Source: Pseudoxanthobacter soli DSM 19599 (GTDB lineage Bacteria > Pseudomonadota > Alphaproteobacteria > Rhizobiales > Segnochrobactraceae). Taken from it: a stretch of DNA of 64,000 bases. The translations under genes and the position numbers were made by a program. Below the pieces are notes generated by a model. It was not told the origin of the DNA. It saw nothing but the letters and a program-made list of their open reading frames with translations, and did not search any database. Shown piece after piece: positions 7,713-15,851 of the stretch (the first letter of the stretch is position 1; every line of letters starts with the position of its first letter). Where the stretch lies: the NCBI GenBank assembly GCA_945898215.1, contig CAMDHY010000003.1, forward strand, positions 1-64,000. Reading direction: 5' to 3'.

Positions 7713-7795
7713 GGGGCCGCAAAAGCGTGCGCAGACCGTGGGCGACATCGCCGTCGCCCGGAACGGTGCGCCCAGGGATGGAAACGGAGACATCG

Positions 7796-8083
7796 ATGCT
7801 GTTTGTCGCCATCTGCCTCGACAAGCCGGACATGCACGAGACGCGGGCTTCCACCCGTCCGGCACGCGACGCCTGGCTGAAGGGCCACGGCGATGCGCTC
7901 AAGCTCACCGGACCCTTTCTCGACCCCACCGGCCAGAAGCCGGTCGGCTCCCTGCTCATCGTCGAAGCGGCCGATCTCGACGCCGCCAAGACGATGCTCG
8001 CCGGGGATCCCTACGAAGAGGTCGGCATGTTCGCGTCCATCGACGTGAAGCCGTGGCGGGTCGGCATCGGCAAGCTTGGCTGA
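7796..8083 (+). CDS. YciI-like domain protein, copy 2
   Basis: This is a 95-residue YciI-like protein of the same length as copy 1. It opens MLFVAICLDKPDM and shares GPFLD, GS-LIVEA-DL and the identical tail KPWRVGIGKLG. The ATG at 7796 follows GGAGACATCG. Substitutions are spread over the middle of the protein while the ends stay fixed, as expected for an older tandem duplication under selection. It is followed after 16 bp by the EVE-domain gene, so it probably heads that operon. Function is not known. Confidence 0.85.
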   Translation: MLFVAICLDKPDMHETRASTRPARDAWLKGHGDALKLTGPFLDPTGQKPVGSLLIVEAADLDAAKTMLAGDPYEEVGMFASIDVKPWRVGIGKLG

Positions 8084-8099
8084 CGGCGAGGGGGGCGGG

Positions 8100-8519
8100 G
8101 TGGCGCACTGGCTCTACAAGTCCGAGCCGTCGGTCTGGTCGTGGGACGACCAGGTGAAGGCCGGCGCCGAGGGGACGCACTGGGACGGCGTGCGCAACCA
8201 CGCCGCCAAGCTCAACCTGATGGCGATGAAGACGGGCGAGCGCGGCTTCTTCTACCACTCCAACGAGGGCAAGGAGATCGTCGGCATCGTCGAGGTGATC
8301 AGCGAGGCCTATCCCGATCCCAAGGACGAGAAGGGCGTGTTCGTGATGGTCGACCTCAAGGCCGTGAAGCCGCTGAAGCGGCCGGTGAGCCTCGAGGTGA
8401 TCAAGACGGAGCCGCGCCTGAAGGAGATGGCGCTGATCAAGTTCTCGCGCCTCTCGGTCCAGCCCGTCACCGACGCCGAGTGGGCGATCGTCTGCGAGAT
8501 GGGCGGCATCGCCCCGTGA
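8100..8519 (+). CDS. EVE domain-containing protein
   Basis: This is a 139-residue single-domain EVE protein (PUA-like fold, related to YTH readers). It opens VAHWLYKSEPSVWSWDDQ and contains GVRNHAAKLNLMAMKTGERGF and FYHSNEGKEIVGIVEV, which form the aromatic-cage fold thought to bind modified bases in nucleic acid. Bacterial EVE proteins often sit near defence or stress genes. Here the context is a methyltransferase and YciI-like proteins. GTG at 8100 after a G-rich ribosome site is preferred to the TTG at 8076, because homologues start at this point. Confidence 0.88.
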   Translation: MAHWLYKSEPSVWSWDDQVKAGAEGTHWDGVRNHAAKLNLMAMKTGERGFFYHSNEGKEIVGIVEVISEAYPDPKDEKGVFVMVDLKAVKPLKRPVSLEVIKTEPRLKEMALIKFSRLSVQPVTDAEWAIVCEMGGIAP

Positions 8520-9178
8520 GCGGGGCGGCGCCGACCGACCGCGCCGTCTTCGTCCGCGACAACACCCGCGTTCTGGCCCCCCCGCACGTCCCGGAACTCC
8601 GCCTGCACCTCGCCGACGAGGCGACGGCGCTGTGGGAGAAGACCGAGGAAGAACTCGGCGCCATGGGCCTGCCGCCGCCCTACTGGGCGTTCGCCTGGGC
8701 CGGCGGCCAGGCACTGGCGCGCTACGTCCTCGACAATCCCGGGATCGTGGCAGGGCGCTCGGTGCTCGATTTCGCCGCGGGCTCCGGCATCGTCGGCATC
8801 GCCGCGATGCGGGTGGGGGCCGCCTCCGCCGTCTCCACCGAGATCGACGGCTTCGCCCTCGCCGCCATTACGGCGAATGCCGCCCTCAACGGCGTCACCG
8901 TCACCGCCCGCGACGAGGATACGACGGCCGAGCCCGCCGGCCGCTTCGACGTCGTGCTGTGCGGCGACGTCTTCTACGAGAAGCCGATGGCCGAGAAGGT
9001 GCTGGCCTGGCTCGACCGCGAGCGGGTGGCCGGCGCCACCGTGCTCGTCGGCGATCCCGGCCGCTCCTACCTGCCGAAGGAGCGCCTCGAGGCCGTCGCC
9101 GAGTACCGCGTGCCGGTGACGCGGGCGCTCGAGGATTCCGAGATCAAGGTGACGCGAGTCTGGCGCTTCGCCGCCTGA
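8516..9178 (+). CDS. METTL20-like class I SAM-dependent protein methyltransferase
   Basis: A 220-residue methyltransferase. It has LPPPYWAFAWAGGQALARYVLD, a SAM loop VLDFAAGSGIVGIAAM and the post-II motif CGDVFYE (DxxY/E type), and closely follows the layout of METTL20/ETFBKMT lysine methyltransferases. The known human and alphaproteobacterial METTL20 enzymes methylate the electron-transfer flavoprotein beta subunit, so an ETF target is a reasonable inference. The GTG start overlaps the stop of the EVE gene in a GTGA, which indicates translational coupling. It is convergent with csaA, with 7 bp between. Confidence 0.82.
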   Translation: MSGAAPTDRAVFVRDNTRVLAPPHVPELRLHLADEATALWEKTEEELGAMGLPPPYWAFAWAGGQALARYVLDNPGIVAGRSVLDFAAGSGIVGIAAMRVGAASAVSTEIDGFALAAITANAALNGVTVTARDEDTTAEPAGRFDVVLCGDVFYEKPMAEKVLAWLDRERVAGATVLVGDPGRSYLPKERLEAVAEYRVPVTRALEDSEIKVTRVWRFAA

Positions 9179-9185
9179 GCCGCCC

Positions 9186-9542
9186 TCAGTAGAGCCGGCC
9201 GCCGATCGGCACGTCGAGATCCGGGCGCACCAGCACGACGGCGCCGTTCTCGTCGGGGACGCCGAGCGTCAGCACCTCCGACATGAACTTGCCGATCTGC
9301 CGCGGCGGGAAGTTCACCACCGCCATCACGCGGCGCCCGACGAGCTCCTCCGGCGTGTAGTGCACGGTGATCTGCGCCGAGGATTTCTTCACGCCGATCT
9401 CCGGCCCGAAGTCGATGTCGAGCTTGTAGGCGGGCTTGCGCGCCTCCGGGAACGGATGCACGCCGATGACGACGCCGACGCGCACGTCGACCTTCAGGAA
9501 ATCGTCGAAGGTGATGGGCGCGGCGGGGGCGGAATCGGACAT
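9186..9542 (-). CDS. csaA: CsaA-like tRNA-binding domain protein
   Basis: This 118-residue stand-alone tRNA-binding OB-fold protein has FDDFLKVDVRVGVVIGVHPF, DFGPEIGVKKSSAQIT and VMAVVNFPPRQIGKFMSEVL. These are the landmarks of CsaA, reported as a secretion-related chaperone with tRNA-binding fold. The length is that of the family. In this chromosome it marks the left border of the unusual small-peptide cassette, and transcription is in the same direction as that cassette. Confidence 0.9.
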   Translation of the reverse strand: MSDSAPAAPITFDDFLKVDVRVGVVIGVHPFPEARKPAYKLDIDFGPEIGVKKSSAQITVHYTPEELVGRRVMAVVNFPPRQIGKFMSEVLTLGVPDENGAVVLVRPDLDVPIGGRLY

Positions 9543-9684
9543 GGGCGCGGCTCGCAGCGATCGTCGGAGCGCGCGACGCTATCTTCCGGCGGGGCCGCTG
9601 CCAACACGTGTCACCGCTGGATGGGCGGCTGGCGACTGCGGACCGCCGAAAGCTGTCCATTGCCACGGCCACGGCCTGCGACGC

Positions 9685-9870
9685 TCAGCGGCCTCTCCGC
9701 TGGCGCAACGCGAAGGTCGTCAACTGGACGAGGCAGGGGTTCGCCGGTGGTTTCGAGCTCTTGCCACGCCGCGGGACCGCTTTCGGATCGAAGCGCGGGT
9801 CCCAGTCGCGCCCGACGACGAGCCGCATGAAGAGCCGCGGGATCGGCGGGACCTGCGTTGGCTGCTGCAT
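9685..9870 (-). CDS. Small basic protein sharing the MxxPxQxxPxxR N-terminal signature (peptide C)
   Basis: This 61-residue protein starts MQQPTQVPPIPRLF. The ATG is preceded by a strong GGGGGAGG ribosome site at good spacing, which is the main evidence that it is real. M1, P4, Q6, P9 and R12 are shared with the two small cysteine-rich proteins just upstream. Beyond this signature it differs: it contains VGRDWDPRFDP, is rich in Arg, Lys and Pro, and has a single Cys near residue 46. It could be a divergent precursor peptide or an accessory protein of the cassette. No homologue is recognised by eye. Confidence 0.55.
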   Translation of the reverse strand: MQQPTQVPPIPRLFMRLVVGRDWDPRFDPKAVPRRGKSSKPPANPCLVQLTTFALRQRRGR

Positions 9871-9949
9871 GATCTTGACCTCCCCCGGCTGTTGGAAGCG
9901 ACGTCGACCCGCCCCGGACTTCCGCAGCCGGGGCGGGACCATTCTGCTC

Positions 9950-10156
9950 TCAGAAGCAGTCCTTGCAGGACGAGTAGGCGGAGCCGAGGCAGGCTATACA
10001 CCCAGCCGTTCCGATGCCCGACGCGCATGCGGTGGCGCAACTGATGACCTTGCCGCCGCATTCCAATCAGTTGCATCCGCTCTGTTGCGCAGCATCCTCA
10101 CGGAAGGCGTAGGCTGTTCCGCGGGACACCGGGGCCGCTTGGACAGGACTTCTCAT
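9950..10156 (-). CDS. Cysteine-rich small peptide with in-frame UGA (peptide B)
   Basis: ATG at 10156 follows a perfect AGGAGG at 8-nt spacing and encodes MRSPVQAAPVSRGTAYA, then AQQSGCN, before TGA at 10069-10067. Immediately after, in the same frame, come 38 codons for a cysteine-rich stretch (LECGGKVISCATACA, GTAGCIACLG, YSSCKDCF) ending at TGA 9952-9950. Ignoring the internal stop gives 68 positions and eight cysteines, one before and seven after the UGA. The neighbouring intact peptide A also has eight. Options are a nonsense mutation or sequencing error (TGG or TGC to TGA), readthrough, selenocysteine, or re-initiation at the TTG codon right after the stop. If the stop is obeyed, only a 29-residue leader-like fragment is made. 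Confidence 0.55.
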
Positions 10157-10200
10157 CTTCTAACCTCCTCTTTCCCGTGATGGTGCTGGCGTGGCCGACG

Positions 10201-10374
10201 TCAGCACTGGCCGATGTTCGGGACGCAAACACCGGCACACCGGCCAGCGAACGGTATGCAGGCGCCGACGCAGCACTGTCCCGGCCCGCAGCAATCGGAC
10301 TGGACTGCCCCGGAATCCGAAACGATGCGGACGTTCCGGCGAGGCGATGGCTTGGCCTGAATGGGGGATCTCAT
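10201..10374 (-). CDS. Cysteine-rich small peptide, putative precursor (peptide A)
   Basis: This 57-residue protein is too small for usual gene calls. It begins MRSPIQAKPSPRRNVR after a strong GAGGAGGAACGAGC ribosome site. The first 27 residues are basic and cysteine-free. The last 30 carry eight cysteines (SDCCGPGQCCVGAC, then GRCAGVC and a C-terminal NIGQC) and no Lys. A leader plus a Cys-rich core is the layout of a ribosomally made, processed peptide. It lies 73 bp downstream of the PatA/PatG-like protease gene on the same strand and 44 bp upstream of peptide B. Peptides B and C repeat its start signature. A toxin, bacteriocin or metallophore role is possible but not shown. Confidence 0.65.
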   Translation of the reverse strand: MRSPIQAKPSPRRNVRIVSDSGAVQSDCCGPGQCCVGACIPFAGRCAGVCVPNIGQC

Positions 10375-10447
10375 GCTCGTTCCTCCTCGCTCAGATGCCG
10401 GCCACCACGGCCGGCGATCGAACTCTCTGCCTCGGCACGGGCACGGC

Positions 10448-11618
10448 TCACAGGCCGGTCAGTGGCGCGTTCCACTCGCGTGTGCGGCCCACCGTGACCG
10501 GAAGCACCTCACTGACGTCGACGGTGCAGCGATAGAAGCGGCCGGCTCGCCGGTCGTTCTCGGGGTCGAACATCACCAGCTGGACGTCCCAGCAATCCGA
10601 GTCCGGCCGGCAGATCGGGCTCTTGCGGACGTCGATCCGGTAGAGCTCGAGCTTTCGGCGCGCGGCGTCGGCGAAGGCGGCAGCCGCCTGGTAGGCGTTG
10701 GTGGCGGCGAAGTTGAGGGCGCGGTCCTCCGGGCTCAGCCCGAAGTTCCTGAGCTCGTCGTAGACGCGGCTCAGGAAGTTGAAGAACGTGCCATCGGGGA
10801 TGTCGTCCGTTCCAGGCACCGCGGCGGCGCAGGTGTCGGCGCTGTCGAGCAGGATCTGGCGGATGTCGACCGGGTCGATGTCGTAGCCGCGGCGGCGCGC
10901 TTCGGAGAGCAGGCGCGCCGCGACGCCCGTCACCACGGCCGCGGCATAGCTCGTCCCCGTTTCGCGCCGGTCGGCATTGCCTTCGTCCCAGCCGAGTTCG
11001 AGATCCACACCGGGCGCGAGGATGCCGTTGCGGCCATAGGCGGCGCCCCAGTTGCTCGCCGCGTGTGGCCGGCCGGCGTCGTCCATGGCGCCGACCGCCA
11101 GCACCGTCGGCGCGGCGGCCGGCACGTGCAGGCAGGCGCAGCCATCGTTTCCGGCGGCGGCGACGACGAGAATGCGGCGCCGCTGGCAGAGCTCCAGCGC
11201 GGCCTCCAGGTGCTCGCCGGCTTCCGTGGTCGAGGAGCGCTGCCCGGCGCTGACGTTGACGATCGCGACGCCGCGCTCCGCTGCCATCTGCAGCGCCCGC
11301 GCGATGTCCATCTGCAAGGCGCGGGGAGGCGCGATCGGTGCCGAGGGCGCCGACGCGAAGAAGATCGGCAGGGCGAGGCCGGCGCAGCCGCTGGCGAGGC
11401 CGTGGCGCGCCGAAGATCAGCCGACAGATCGCCGTGGCGTGCCGGTCCGGCAACACCGCGATGTCCGGAAGCATGGTGGTCTCGACCGTGATGGTGGCGC
11501 CGGCGAGATCCGGGTCCGCCAGGTCCGGCATCCCGTCGACGACGGCGACAAGCACGCCCGGGTCTGCTGGTCCCCGCCGGTCGAGGCCCGCGAGATGCGG
11601 TAACGCGGATGACCCCAT
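10448..11618 (-). pseudogene. PatA/PatG-like subtilase (S8 family) with frameshift
   Basis: Two overlapping frames make one S8 peptidase. Frame 1 starts at ATG 11618 and gives VLVAVVDGMPDL (catalytic Asp28) and DRHATAICRLIFGA (His60). At about 11405 one base is extra (or two are missing) and the second frame continues with HGLASGCAGLALPIF, INVSAGQ-like IVNVSAGQ, AAAGNDGCACLHVPA (oxyanion Asn157), SNWGAAYGRNGILAPG and ETGTSYAAA (Ser223). Rejoined length is about 389 residues. The GNDGC-CLHVPA block, SNWG-AY-GILAPG and the C-terminal DCWDVQLVMFDPEN...VTVGRTREW module look like cyanobactin maturation proteases. Codon third positions stay GC-rich on both sides of the shift. It could be a real lesion or an assembly error. 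Confidence 0.75.
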
Positions 11619-11957
11619 GTGCCCTCGGAGCGCCCGAAGGCGGCCGCCCCCTGAGGGCGGGATGATGCCCTCGGAGGAAAATCTACCGGCAACAATGCAA
11701 TCTAAGAAAGAGAAAACGACTCACTACAATCAAAACGGTTCTTCGCCGGCCCCACCCCACGGGGCAGCAGTGGGGCCGATCCCTCCCTGGCCATGGCTTC
11801 GCACCTGCGGCAGGCCGGCCTGCCGCATAAGGATTCTGCGTCACGGCAGAGCGGAAGAGCATCCGGGCGGGAGCGCGGAGATTGCGTGGATGTGGTCGGA
11901 GGGCCGTGGACCGGCCGCCCCCCGACTTACACCGACTCGAGTTGCACCGACACGGCC
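11619..11957. other. Intergenic region upstream of the subtilase cassette
   Basis: This 339-bp region has no convincing gene. An AT-rich stretch at about 11690-11745, unusual for this genome, is the best place for the promoter of the minus-strand cassette, but no clean -35/-10 pair was found. It also contains the hairpin at 11747-11778. Confidence 0.5.
11747..11778 (-). terminator. Stem-loop downstream of the TetR gene
   Basis: CGGCCCCAC and GTGGGGCCG form a perfect 9-bp stem with a 14-nt loop. On the minus strand it lies after the tetR stop and before the subtilase gene, and a TTTT follows about ten bases later. It probably separates the two transcripts. Confidence 0.4.
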
Positions 11958-12680
11958 CTACACCGCCCCGGTGTCCGCCGCAGCGGCGTCTGCGCCCGGG
12001 TCACGGGTGGACGAGCGCTCGCGGCGGGCGGCGCGGCCGCGCTCGCGCATCTTGTCGAGGAAGCTCACGACCCGGCAGCCGACCTTTTCGGCCCGCGCGA
12101 GCATCGCCTCGCCACGGGCGAGCGTCCGGTCGAGGGCCGCCATCGTGCGGCCGAGGCCGGGGTCGTCGTCGTCGAGCCAGACCGGCATGATCCGCGCCAT
12201 CACCACGGCGAGGCCGGCGGCGCGCAGGCGCCCGAGCGGGCTCGAAGCCTCGATGCCCGCGGCGGCGAGCGTCCACGGCTGCGCCGACAGGCCGATGCCG
12301 GCGAGGCACGCGGCGAGGCCGGGGTCGCGACGGGCCGCCTTGGCGAGATTGCGGATCGCCGGCTTGTAGGGGGTGATGAGGTCGAGGCGGCGCATCACCA
12401 CGTCGAGCAGGCGGTCGCGTGCCGGCTGTTCGGCGTCGCCGTCACCGAGGCCCTCGTCGCTGGCGCGGTCCTTCTCGGCCTCGTCGAGGAGCTTGGCATC
12501 GATGCGGGCGACGAAGTCGGCGAGGATCGCGCGCCGACCGGCATGGGCACCGCGCAGGGTGGCGAGGGGGACCTCCGCCCGGGCGGCGACGTCGGCGAGG
12601 GAGATCGTGTCCCACGCCCGTTCGCCGGCGAGCGCCATCAAGGCCTCGACGATGCGCTGACGCTGCTTCTCGGTCGCCAT
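11958..12680 (-). CDS. TetR-family regulator (rhizobial proC-linked type)
   Basis: This is a 240-residue protein. The N-terminal helix-turn-helix region reads RIVEALMALAGERAWDTISLAD and VAARAEVPLATLRGAHAGRRAI. The C-terminal half is Ala/Arg-rich and ends in a low-complexity charged tail (RERSSTRDPGADAAAADTGAV). It has an excellent AAGGAGG ribosome site. A TetR-like gene next to proC and ybjN is a recurrent arrangement in Rhizobiales, so it belongs to the backbone rather than to the neighbouring peptide cassette. Its ligand and targets are unknown. Confidence 0.75.
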   Translation of the reverse strand: MATEKQRQRIVEALMALAGERAWDTISLADVAARAEVPLATLRGAHAGRRAILADFVARIDAKLLDEAEKDRASDEGLGDGDAEQPARDRLLDVVMRRLDLITPYKPAIRNLAKAARRDPGLAACLAGIGLSAQPWTLAAAGIEASSPLGRLRAAGLAVVMARIMPVWLDDDDPGLGRTMAALDRTLARGEAMLARAEKVGCRVVSFLDKMRERGRAARRERSSTRDPGADAAAADTGAV

Positions 12681-12803
12681 GGTGGCCTCCTTGCCTGTGC
12701 CCGCCCGAACTCTCCACTACAGAGCTAGGAACGCCCGGCGCCGCTGCAAGGCGCCCGCGACGTTCAGGCGCCGGCTGTGGGCGCTTGAGCGCCGGCGGCG
12801 CGA

Positions 12804-13628
12804 TCAGCCGTCGGCGGAGAGCGCGCGCGAGCGTGCGGCGGCGGCGCGGATGGCGTCGTGGACGAGGCGCGGAATGCCGCGATCGACCATCAGCACGGCG
12901 AGCGCTGCGGCCGTCGTGCCGCCGGGGGAGGTGACGTTGCGCCGCAGCGTCGCCGGGTCGTGGCCGGAGCGGGCGAGCAGTTCGCCGGCGCCGGCGACGG
13001 TGTCGCGGGCAAGGCGGAAGGCGAGGTCGGGCGGCAGTCCCGCCTCCTCGCCGGCCGCCGCCATCGCCTCGGCGAGCAGGAACACATAGGCCGGGCCGGA
13101 GCCGGAGACGGCGGTGACGGCATCGATCAGCGCCTCGTCCTCCACCCATTCGACGCGGCCGACGGCCGCCATCAGGGCGGTGGCGGTGGCGCGCTGTTCC
13201 TGCCTCACGCCCTCGCCGGCGACGCAGACGGTGACGCCGCGGTGCACCTGCGCCGGCGTGTTCGGCATGGCGCGCACCACTGCGTTGGCGCGAAGGTCGC
13301 GCTCGAAGCGGGCGATCGGTGTGCCGGCGGCGATCGACACCACCAGCGTCTCGGCCGACAGCACGGCGGTGAGCGCCGGCAGCGCCGCGCCCATCGTCTG
13401 CGGCTTCACCGCCACGACGGCGACGCGGGGGGTGATGTCGGCGGGAACCGCGCTCTCGTGGCGGATGCCGTGGGTGCGCAGGAAGGCCTGCATGTCCGAG
13501 GCCGGCATCGGGTCGACGACGATCACGTCGGCCGGCGCGAGGCCGCCTTCGATCCAGCCCGCGAGGAGCGCGCCCCCCATCTTGCCGGCGCCGAGGAGCA
13601 GGAGGGGCGCAGCGTCCTTCAGCGACAT
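12804..13628 (-). CDS. proC: Pyrroline-5-carboxylate reductase
   Basis: The 274-residue protein performs the last step of proline synthesis, NAD(P)H reduction of pyrroline-5-carboxylate. The Rossmann motif is LLLLGAGKMGGALLAGW. VVAVKPQTM and RAMPNTPAQVHRGVT are present. The P5CR signature is seen in AVSGSGPAYVFLLAEAM and LRRNVTSPGGTTAAAL. The start has an AGGAGTGAAAG ribosome site. It lies in the order ybjN-proC-tetR, all on the minus strand. Confidence 0.96.
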   Translation of the reverse strand: MSLKDAAPLLLLGAGKMGGALLAGWIEGGLAPADVIVVDPMPASDMQAFLRTHGIRHESAVPADITPRVAVVAVKPQTMGAALPALTAVLSAETLVVSIAAGTPIARFERDLRANAVVRAMPNTPAQVHRGVTVCVAGEGVRQEQRATATALMAAVGRVEWVEDEALIDAVTAVSGSGPAYVFLLAEAMAAAGEEAGLPPDLAFRLARDTVAGAGELLARSGHDPATLRRNVTSPGGTTAAALAVLMVDRGIPRLVHDAIRAAAARSRALSADG

Positions 13629-13660
13629 CTTTCACTCCTGCACGGCTAAGCGGGCGGGTG

Positions 13661-13700
13661 GAAAAGCCGAAGGCCGAACCCGTCCGGGGTCCGGCCTTCG
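13661..13700 (-). terminator. Rho-independent terminator after ybjN
   Basis: CGAAGGCCG (13668-13676) pairs with CGGCCTTCG (13692-13700), with further ACCC/GGGT pairing inside the loop. On the minus strand it is followed by a TTTT. It ends the ybjN transcript just ahead of proC. Confidence 0.75.
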
Positions 13701-13764
13701 TCTTGCTGCAAGCCCTGCCGCCGGTGGGGCGACAGCGCGGACGGGCCTCTCGGGCCCCTGGTTC

Positions 13765-14265
13765 TCAGGCCTGGCCGGCGGTCTCGAAGAGCACCGTCTC
13801 CAGCGCCTCGCCGGCGCTCTTGCCGGCCCAGACGACGAACTGGAAGGCCTGGTAGTGCTGCTCGCAGGTCTCGAGCGCGTGCGCCAGCATACCCTCGATC
13901 TGGGCCGGCGAGGGCTCGAGGTCGCCGGCCAGCAGCAGCGACTGGCGGTACATGACGACGCCTTCCTCGTTCCAGAGGTCGAAATGGCCCATCAGCATGC
14001 GCTCGTTGACGAGGGCGAGCAGCCGGCAGATCTCGGTGCGGCGCGGCGGCGGCACCTTGAGGTCGAAGGCGCAGGCGAGGTGCAGAGCCTCGAAGCTGTC
14101 TAGCCAGGAGAACGACAGGTGGTAGTCGCTCATGTTGCCGGCAACCGAGATGGTGATCTCGTCGTCGCCGTCGCGCTCGAAGGTCCAGTCGTTCGTCATC
14201 GCCACCCGTTCGATCGCGTCGACGGGGTTGCTCTGCTGCTCGATCTCGAAGTCGATGAGTGACAT
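13765..14265 (-). CDS. YbjN domain-containing protein
   Basis: This is a 166-residue YbjN-fold protein (related to type III secretion chaperone-like folds). It begins MSLIDFEIEQQSNPVDAIER and has DWTFERDGDDEITISVAG, FSWLDSFEALHLACAFDLKVP and VNERMLMGHFDLWNEEG, as in the alphaproteobacterial proC-linked form. YbjN proteins are linked to stress and surface phenotypes, but no biochemical role is settled. The ATG at 14265 follows GAGAGGAAC and matches the start of homologues. Confidence 0.88.
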   Translation of the reverse strand: MSLIDFEIEQQSNPVDAIERVAMTNDWTFERDGDDEITISVAGNMSDYHLSFSWLDSFEALHLACAFDLKVPPPRRTEICRLLALVNERMLMGHFDLWNEEGVVMYRQSLLLAGDLEPSPAQIEGMLAHALETCEQHYQAFQFVVWAGKSAGEALETVLFETAGQA

Positions 14266-14530
14266 GACCGTTCCTCTCGGTTGCGAGGAATGCGGGCGCG
14301 ACACCGGGAGGGTGCGCCGCCCCCACACGTTACCGACCGGCCGGTCCGCCGGACGGAGCCAGGAAGCGCTCGGAGGCCGAAGCCTGCCAGGCCGACGCAC
14401 GCAGCGTCCGCGAGCGCGAATCTCCGTTTGATCGAAGTCTAGCAGGTCGGCTGCGGGCGACGAGAGCCAAAGTGACGCCGCGGCAACCCGTTCCGGCCGC
14501 CGCGTCCGTCGCGGGCGACATCGGCCCCGT

Positions 14531-14833
14531 TCAGCCCGCCGGACCGTCCATCGGGCCCGGCGGCTCCTTCGCCGCCACCTCGAGCGCCGCGACGCGGCCC
14601 TCCAGCGCGGCGAGGGCGAGCTTCAGGGCGTCGGCCTCGGCGCGCGCCTTCGCCGCCATCTCCTTGACGGCCTCGTGCTCGTCGCGGTGGACGACGTCCA
14701 TGTCGGAGAGGAAGCGCTCGGCCTGGGCGCGGAAGGCGGTCTCCGCCTCGCGGCGAACGCCCTGGGCGACGGCGGCGGCATCGGTCGCGAGCTTGGCGAA
14801 CTCGTCGAGCAGGCGATTGTTGGTCTGGGTCAT
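14531..14833 (-). CDS. ubiK: UbiK-family accessory factor
   Basis: A small coiled-coil protein of 100 residues beginning MTQTNNRLLDEFAKLATDAA. It has a predicted membrane-associating helix, then Ala/Glu-rich helices, and ends with a Pro/Gly tail. This matches the UbiK (YqiC) family, which assists the UbiJ-containing soluble ubiquinone-synthesis complex. The second in-frame ATG (14833) is preferred over 14839 because GGAGG is then correctly spaced. It is divergent from lgt, as in many Rhizobiales. Confidence 0.85.
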   Translation of the reverse strand: MTQTNNRLLDEFAKLATDAAAVAQGVRREAETAFRAQAERFLSDMDVVHRDEHEAVKEMAAKARAEADALKLALAALEGRVAALEVAAKEPPGPMDGPAG

Positions 14834-15014
14834 CGGCATGTCCTCCGGCCGGGCGCCGTCTCCGGCAGACTATGGGGACGGCATCCGACGTTCACAAGAC
14901 GACCGGGAGCGGCCCTTCCGCCGCAGCCCGGTGCGGGGCGGCGGCCGGTCGGGCGATTGACCCGCCGCGGCCGGCCGGTGCAGGGTCCGGCCGCCCCCGG
15001 AGACGCCCCGACCG

Positions 15015-15851
15015 ATGTTGTTCGTCCTGCCGTTTCCCGCCATCGACCCGGTGATCGTCGAGTTCGGGCCGTTCGCGCTGCGCTGGTACGCGCTCGCCTA
15101 TGTCGCCGGCATCCTGCTCGGCTGGTGGTACATGCGGGCGCTGGTGCGCACCGAGCGGCTGTGGGCGCCCGGCCAGCCGCGCCCGAGCCTCGCCGATGTC
15201 GACGACGTCGTCCTGTGGGCGACGCTCGGCATCGTGCTCGGCGGCCGGCTCGGCTACGTGCTGTTCTACAACCCGCTGTACTTCCTGCAGAACCCGGCGG
15301 AGATCCTGGTCCTCTGGGAGGGCGGCATGTCCTTCCACGGCGGCTTCCTCGGCGTCGTCCTCGCCGTCTGGCTGTTCTCCTGGCGACGGCACGTGCCGCT
15401 CGGTTCGCTGTCGGACATCGTCGCCGTCTCGACGCCGTTCGGGCTGCTGTTCGGGCGGCTCGCGAACTTCGTCAACGGCGAGCTGTGGGGCCGGCCGACC
15501 GACGTGCCGTGGGCGTTCGTCTTCCCCCGCGCCGGGCCGGAGCCGCGCCATCCGAGCCAGCTCTACGAGGCGGCGCTCGAGGGCCTCGTGCTCTTGCTCG
15601 TGCTGCGGCTGCTGACACACCGCTTCGGCATCCTGAAGCGCCCGTGGTTCGCCACCGGCGCCTTCGTCTGCGGTTACGGTCTCGCCCGCACCTTCGTCGA
15701 GTTCTTCCGCATGCCCGACGCCCACATCGGCTTCTTCGCCGGCTGGCTGACGATGGGCATGCTGCTGTCGGTGCCGATGATCGTCGTCGGCGCGGCCGCT
15801 ATGGCGTGGGCGGCGCGGCGGCCGGTGGTGGCGGCCGGCACGGCGCCGTGA
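15015..15851 (+). CDS. lgt: Prolipoprotein diacylglyceryl transferase
   Basis: An inner-membrane enzyme of 278 residues that moves diacylglycerol from phosphatidylglycerol to the lipobox Cys of prolipoproteins. The conserved HGGF motif appears in SFHGGFLGVVLAVW. The Lgt signature follows in GRLANFVNGELWGRPTDVPW, along with PRHPSQLYEAALEG. About seven membrane segments are visible. Its stop overlaps the GTG start of the next gene by four bases, so the lgt-midA-pgeF genes are probably coupled. Confidence 0.96.
   Translation: MLFVLPFPAIDPVIVEFGPFALRWYALAYVAGILLGWWYMRALVRTERLWAPGQPRPSLADVDDVVLWATLGIVLGGRLGYVLFYNPLYFLQNPAEILVLWEGGMSFHGGFLGVVLAVWLFSWRRHVPLGSLSDIVAVSTPFGLLFGRLANFVNGELWGRPTDVPWAFVFPRAGPEPRHPSQLYEAALEGLVLLLVLRLLTHRFGILKRPWFATGAFVCGYGLARTFVEFFRMPDAHIGFFAGWLTMGMLLSVPMIVVGAAAMAWAARRPVVAAGTAP

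Follow-up and report, generated by a model that had tools for sequence, protein, structure and literature searches.

A probable decayed member of a minimal, cyanobactin-related family of peptide-maturation cassettes in Pseudoxanthobacter soli

We conclude that a small gene island in Pseudoxanthobacter soli DSM 19599 is probably what decay has left of a minimal peptide-maturation cassette, one of a family built on a stand-alone PatA-type leader peptidase and related to the cyanobactin pathways without being one of them. The island lies in the 64,000-nucleotide stretch of DNA that was analysed (the window). As judged from sequence comparison, such a cassette would comprise a single cytosolic subtilase of the PatA type, composed of an S8 domain, a disordered linker and a PatG_C-type domain, and one to five precursor genes. 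An intact precursor would consist of a docking block M[KR][LS]PxQ[AS]xP[VI]xR, a short spacer, a [VILM]x[PAQ]S site as the equivalent of RSII, and a variable core. The RiPP features observed are the linkage of protease and precursors, the leader motif and a predicted cut site. The initial annotation had proposed a RiPP-like system with multiple precursors in an alphaproteobacterium; this agrees with our reading of the family and is not supported for the window itself, where the copy does not appear to work and the third small gene has no evident core. Stand-alone PatA-type cassettes were not found described in the open-licence literature.

The island occupies positions 11618..9685 of the minus strand, where a subtilase gene in two frames is followed by three short ORFs, and is flanked by a TetR-like gene (11958-12680) and a tRNA-binding-domain gene (9186-9542). 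The protease reads from 11618 to 10448, split over two frames. Frame A (11409..11618, minus strand, ATG start at 11618) encodes the 5' part of the PatA-like S8 protease with the Asp and His motifs (VAVVDG..HATAICRLIFG) and aligns with residues 1-70 of intact relatives. Frame B (10448..11416, minus strand) encodes the remainder of the S8 domain with the catalytic Ser and the C-terminal half of PatG_C, and contains the blocks AAGNDGCACLHVPA, SNWGAAYGRNGILAPG, GTSYAA and DCWDVQL..VTVGRTREW. Immediately ahead of the protease start, a short segment rich in AT (11660-11730) within GC-rich surroundings is a likely promoter. The three short ORFs, all on the minus strand, each follow a good Shine-Dalgarno sequence (gaggagga, gaggagg and gggggagg for ORF1 to ORF3). 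ORF1 (10201..10374) is precursor-like, with 57 amino acids and eight Cys (MRSPIQAKPSPRRNVRIVSDSGAVQSDCCGPGQCCVGACIPFAGRCAGVCVPNIGQC), and can be divided into the leader MRSPIQAKPSPR, a cut-site-like AVQS and the core DCCGPGQCCVGACIPFAGRCAGVCVPNIGQC. ORF2 (9948..10156), also precursor-like, has 68 codons and eight Cys, with the leader MRSPVQAAPVSR, QQS and then an eight-Cys core ending in CKDCF; its translation, MRSPVQAAPVSRGTAYAFREDAAQQSGCN*LECGGKVISCATACASGIGTAGCIACLGSAYSSCKDCF, is interrupted by an in-frame TGA at 10069..10067. ORF3 (9685..9870), the third gene with the motif, encodes 61 amino acids (MQQPTQVPPIPRLFMRLVVGRDWDPRFDPKAVPRRGKSSKPPANPCLVQLTTFALRQRRGR), starts with MQQPTQVPPIPR and ends in a conserved CLxQLxTF; neither a Cys-rich core nor a cut site was found over its full length, and its product is possibly an accessory protein. 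The coordinates and sequences match the layout first described for this locus, an S8 gene with three tiny genes preceded by Shine-Dalgarno sequences on the minus strand.

The suspected tie of the protease to PatA and PatG was confirmed by the NCBIfam model TIGR03895 ('PatA/PatG family cyanobactin maturation protease'), which frame B passes with 429.4 bits against a cut-off of 421.05. The window protease also matches Pfam PatG_C (PF18065) with 134 bits against a cut-off of 25.9, and PF00082 with 78 bits. Its closest neighbour in the tree is an intact protease of 657 amino acids from a Bauldia MAG (locus L007; 73% identity over 310 columns), which scores higher against structures of the cyanobactin N-terminal protease PatA (206 bits) than against the PatG C-terminal domain (181 bits) or ordinary subtilisins (56 bits). 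The predicted fold of L007 resembles the PagA/PatA protease (TM 0.87-0.89) and the PatG DUF (TM 0.86). The window-type protease is nearer to PatA than to PatG. Membership of the PatA/PatG family, as initially suggested, stands; a PatG that would remove a follower is absent. An ordinary degradative subtilase, the alternative against which the protease was to be checked, is ruled out by the TIGR03895 match, the bit scores and the fold comparison. Stand-alone proteases share their two-domain architecture with PatA (PDB 4h6v, 4h6w, 3zxx) and differ from it in being the sole protease of their locus and in accompanying other precursor cores. The lanthipeptide leader peptidases NisP, ElxP and AmyP (PMC10885120 and general knowledge) are likewise S8 enzymes that remove leaders from ribosomal precursors, but they belong to a different subtilase subfamily, have different recognition motifs and occur with lanthionine synthetases. 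Elsewhere in the same genome (contig C160, 2141-5980), three tandem genes encode a different, weakly related S8 subtilase.

The MxxPxQxxPxxR start shared by the three small ORFs, noted at the outset, proved real. When the window ORFs were compared by phmmer with 16,731 small segments taken from related loci, their top matches all adjoined PatA-like proteases (ORF1, 3e-19; ORF2, 6e-26; ORF3, 3e-13). Homologues of ORF1 were found in L011, L018, L050, L015 and L039, those of ORF2 in L007 (6e-26), L016, L012, L008 and L009, for which a family alignment was made, and those of ORF3 in L007 (3e-13), L011, L015, L008, L012 and L009. The same order recurs in Bauldia, Jiella and Aurantimonas: protease, one or more Cys-rich ORFs, an eight-Cys 'CF' ORF and an ORF3-type gene. 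For four of six homologous precursor pairs dN/dS was about 0.13-0.26; it was about 0.46-0.5 in two Aurantimonas comparisons, one of them with Fulvimarina. Clear purifying selection was not seen in two recent gene duplicates. Pfam and NCBIfam contained no known family for the window ORFs or, apart from PatB and cyanobactin-type members, for their stand-alone relatives. The predicted structure of the eight-Cys precursor family is a pair of helices of low confidence (pLDDT 62).

The linkage of leader motif and protease extends well beyond the Hyphomicrobiales, where such short ORFs had been predicted to lie next to related proteases. Among 33 loci retrieved with the protease, the regular expression PxQxxPxxR at ORF starts found 53 motif ORFs near the protease and none in the remaining 218 kb, in flanks of similar size; a PSSM found 72 near the protease and none far from it. 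As a consensus, the motif reads M-[KR]-[LSF]-P-x-Q-[AS]-x-P-[VI]-x-R. In a separate set of 33 stand-alone loci, in which one pair represents the same genome twice, 31 had at least one motif ORF, and the same linkage was seen in loci retrieved through PF18065, independently of the motif (L106, L110, L111, L119, L121, L134, L135 and L137). Carriers belong to the Alphaproteobacteria, Gammaproteobacteria, Cyanobacteria, Clostridia, Gemmatimonadota and Bacteroidota (L135, with looser variants of the motif in L022 and L032) and include a Nocardioidaceae MAG (L038). Intact cassettes contained one PatA-type protease and one to five precursors, and no PatG, YcaO, oxidase or conserved exporter was found in stand-alone cassettes. 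The family is patchily distributed: it occurred in 7 of 397 genomes of Hyphomicrobiales, in 2 of 385 from a broader sampling of Alphaproteobacteria, in 22 of 244 cyanobacteria, in 5 of 229 genomes in the class of Algicola and in 2 of 247 genomes in a Bacteroidota sample, and among 249 genomes of the Clostridia phylum only the seed genome scored above the cut-off.

Precursors of the family carry a candidate cut site between block and core. The pattern [VILM]x[PAQ]S was present there in 44 of 77 stand-alone precursors, against a mean of 12.2 (maximum 26) in 1000 shuffles, and the exact cyanobactin RSII, G[LV]E[AP]S, after which PatA-like enzymes cut (PMC10885120), in six of the 77 (shuffled mean 0.0, maximum 1). 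The predicted cores are either rich in Cys (4-10 residues), as in the window, or free of Cys and amphipathic, as in GVEPS|DWFSDLMGTVVPALPGILGAFGI (L038) and GVEAS|AWYDTLLDIAKKAVPIVSNVLGSL (L110); cores of the latter type occur in L110, L111, L038 and L137. These amphipathic cores, the patchy distribution and the lack of a conserved exporter would also suit inducible self-killing or defence modules, in which a triggered protease frees membrane-active peptides inside the cell. The only recurrent neighbour of stand-alone cassettes points in the same direction: a patatin-like phospholipase resembling CBASS effector models, whose gene comes immediately after the precursors in four loci of cyanobacteria (L031:8167-9252, L110:12129-13253, L111:12288-13439 and L121:10877-12049). 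We nevertheless consider this explanation rather unlikely, as no sensor gene is conserved, the alphaproteobacterial loci have no patatin, the PADLOC models matched the protease with nothing beyond generic subtilase-type models, and toxicity is less obvious for Cys-rich cores. No exporter, immunity or tailoring genes were conserved beside the alphaproteobacterial stand-alone loci.

The small proteins might instead be partners of the subtilase rather than its substrates, either knottin-like inhibitors or chaperone-like proteins. Subtilases are often paired with inhibitors, ORF1 weakly resembles trypsin inhibitors, and the block also occurs without a cut site, in ORF3-type proteins and PatB, and is hence not invariably a substrate marker. 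The resemblance of ORF1 stays below the level of a significant family match (Pfam Tryp_inh E 0.02; PDB 4aoq E 0.11), and we regard this reading as improbable: the cores are hypervariable and some are Cys-free and amphipathic (those of L110, L111, L038 and L137), the exact PatA site lies at the border of leader and core in six cases, and true PatA substrates, the cyanobactin precursors, open with the same block.

The copy in the window is most likely a dead pseudogene cluster and probably silent. Its lesions were judged by alignment with six intact relatives (L007, L009, L011, L014, L010 and L016). The protease loses its frame through a frameshift right after HATAICRLIFG and has also suffered a deletion of about 275 residues, in frame, which fuses SADTC to AAAVPGTDD at a junction at approximately 10827..10830 on the minus strand. 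Mapped on the L007 model, from which the domain limits were taken, this deletion takes away the end of the S8 domain, the entire disordered linker (residues 295-392) and the initial half of the C-terminal domain. A third lesion is the TGA inside ORF2. The full succession of S8 domain, linker and C-terminal domain, present in relatives such as L007, is thus absent here, and the protease that the initial annotation had considered rejoined across the frameshift is still incomplete, the deletion having been overlooked. Because of the frameshift, the deletion and the nonsense codon, we judge the window copy to be decayed, and the working cassette initially envisaged at this position is not borne out. 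The copy could be functional if the frameshift were programmed or an error of sequencing and if the shortened protease represented a compact form that occurs naturally. In favour of this, the deletion preserves the reading frame, the remaining S8 part retains the Ser motif, ORF1 and ORF3 are unbroken, and a base error is possible in a draft genome of 224 contigs; against this stand three independent lesions, the extent of the deletion, to which the S8 end, the linker and one half of the C-terminal domain are lost, and the absence of the compact form from all intact relatives aligned. We give this possibility little credence. The two further genomes of the same taxonomic family retain the neighbours TetR, P5CR and YbjN yet have no PatG_C protein, and the cassette is therefore accessory.

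The precursor family, which the initial annotation could not name, is recognizable by its N-terminal block, the same as that with which cyanobactin precursors and PatB open. In L025 a cyanobactin precursor begins with MDKQNLMPQAAQPVNR..LAELSEEAL..SYDGDDAE, and the block was found in further cyanobactin precursors of L108, L114-L117 and L122 (MDKKNLLPNQGAPVIRG in L122 and MTKKNIRPQQVAPVERE in L114-L116). A PatB-family match in L017 (TIGR04220, E 1.9e-36) and the start of PatB-family proteins, MKLPKQSPPVKR, extend it to PatB. PatB, AcyB and McaB (TIGR04220) resemble ORF3-type proteins in having the block without a cut site, and beyond the block no likeness was noticed. Cyanobactin pathways (PatA/PatE/PatG) and stand-alone cassettes thus have in common a protease with TIGR03895 and PatG_C, the LPxQxxPVxR block, an RSII-like site and several precursors per locus, whereas the stand-alone cassettes are without PatG, PatD/YcaO, PatB, PatC, RSI and RSIII, and their cores are longer (about 20-60 amino acids) and Cys-rich or amphipathic compared with the short macrocycle cores of cyanobactins.

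The remaining elements follow the enzymes. RSI (LAELSEEAL) is confined to loci with YcaO, RSIII (AYDGE or FAGDDAE type) to loci with a second PatG-like protein and PatB, in this set, to cyanobactin-type loci. Cyanobactin biosynthesis requires two proteases, A and G, with G as the macrocyclase (PMC4663559), and such a pair was absent from the window locus and its stand-alone relatives. A single PatG_C protein was found in the window genome and in seven of eight stand-alone genomes searched whole, the exception being an Algicola MAG with paralogues that consist of the C-terminal domain only. Of the precursor features of cyanobactins, namely a leader and RSII and RSIII around short cores, the leader and an RSII-like site were present and RSIII was absent. 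The B and C genes of cyanobactin pathways, whose roles have been called unresolved (PMC4663559), did not characterize the stand-alone loci, which had no RSI, RSIII, PatB-type ORF or YcaO and beside which a PatC-like ORF was not conserved. The YcaO expected of an azoline RiPP (TOMM) cluster occurred only in cyanobactin-type loci. A true cyanobactin or other azoline RiPP cluster with its remaining enzymes elsewhere in the genome, although consistent with the protease family, the cyanobactin-type leader block and the existence of a cyanobactin-like cluster (YcaO, second protease, DUF5837 precursor) in the alphaproteobacterial MAG of L021, is highly improbable given the lone PatG_C protein in the window genome and several intact stand-alone genomes, the lack of YcaO near any stand-alone protease and the lack of RSI and RSIII in any stand-alone precursor, which together largely rule out a full cyanobactin cluster. 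The L021 cluster itself (7722-15742) encodes PatA, a PatB-like protein, YcaO, a DUF5837 precursor with LAEMSEETL and a second PatG-like protease; the MAG is labelled Roseobacter, which places the cluster in the Alphaproteobacteria or reflects a binning error.

The linkers between the S8 and C-terminal domains of the proteases contain sites that resemble those of the precursors. In 65 linkers we counted 196 sites of the cut type, against 41 (maximum 57) after shuffling, and 51 sites followed by Cys, against 10. Linker and precursor sites resemble each other within a locus, as in Aurantimonas (VLQS|DCGCG in linkers, VSQS|GCC in precursors) and Ancylobacter (VTPS|DCGCG and LQPS|DCCG). The class of the P2 residue, Gln or not, was the same in 48 of 50 linker-precursor pairs of a locus (permutation p<0.0005, pairs not phylogenetically independent); the Gln type belongs mostly to one alphaproteobacterial clade, so that few independent events lie behind this agreement. 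In having Gln at P2 in both linker and precursor sites, this clade differs from PatA. The linker is disordered in the L007 model. The linker sites likely serve autoproteolysis or control by a pseudo-substrate. The structure described as a 'self-cleaved protease domain of PatA' (PDB 3zxx) was considered as support for self-cutting in the linker and set aside, as its construct stops short of the linker sites; it demonstrates no more than the ability of PatA to cleave itself.

From the protease family, the motif linkage, the cut-site enrichment, the linker mimicry and the lesions, all read from sequence, we infer docking, cleavage position, release and regulation. The N-terminal block of a precursor would dock on the protease, the S8 domain would cut after the Ser of [PAQ]S, and the Cys-rich or amphipathic core would then be released, while the substrate-like sites of the linker may limit or time the activity of the protease. 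No heterocyclization or macrocyclization is expected, because neither YcaO nor PatG accompanies the protease. A PatE peptide, NILPQQGQPVIR, was included in the crystallization of a cyanobactin oxidase as it 'may bind', and its density was not visible (PMC5108345). Since the block persists where both heterocyclase and oxidase are absent, these cannot be its sole partners, and the PatA-type protease, as the common factor, is pointed to as its putative partner. The C-terminal domain alone was weakened as a docking candidate. Proteins of about 300 amino acids with a PatG_C-type domain and no protease domain were found at L054:8888-9811, L132:7829-8713, L133:10844-11728, L034:9020-9937 and L136, and no motif ORFs lay near them at L054, L132, L133 and L136, with L034 as the exception, where a PatA-like protease and a motif ORF adjoin the PatG_C-only protein. 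The isolated C-terminal domain of PatG showed no binding to PatE' by NMR, and the role of this domain in PatA and PatG has been called unresolved (PMC4259220).

The cyanobactin A and G proteases lie together on one side of a well-supported branch when the tree is drawn unrooted, and their neighbours are the stand-alone proteases of L110 and L111, whose precursors contain the exact GVEAS. We tentatively propose, with a confidence slightly below even, that the block [KR][LS]PxQ[AS]xP[VI]xR is an ancient docking tag, shared across phyla, through which stand-alone and cyanobactin precursors as well as PatB engage PatA-type proteases, that the cyanobactin A and G proteases descend from one-protease cassettes, and that these proteases regulate themselves through the substrate-like sites of their linkers. 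The cassettes may thus show the ancestry of cyanobactin pathways, as far as an unrooted tree and the exact GVEAS in neighbouring stand-alone precursors can indicate. The persistence of leader block and C-terminal domain in minimal cassettes without heterocyclase, oxidase or macrocyclase suggests a purpose for the conserved start of cyanobactin leaders, and offers small systems for direct tests of the partner of the block. The family would also represent a class of Cys-rich or amphipathic ribosomal peptides that lacks annotation and extends over at least six phyla; it can be found with one protease family and a 12-residue motif.

Two loci provided minor observations on the precursor genes. In Aurantimonas manganoxydans (L012), a transposase-like gene, IS256-type by eye, lies between precursor genes (10365-12020), and the locus has one precursor more than that of A. 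coralicida. In a Gemmatimonadota MAG, the Cys-rich precursor is accompanied by another motif ORF (L037:4452-4661; MKIPTMSAPVVRR...), whose tail is acidic and poor in Cys and which is possibly accessory, like ORF3 or PatB.
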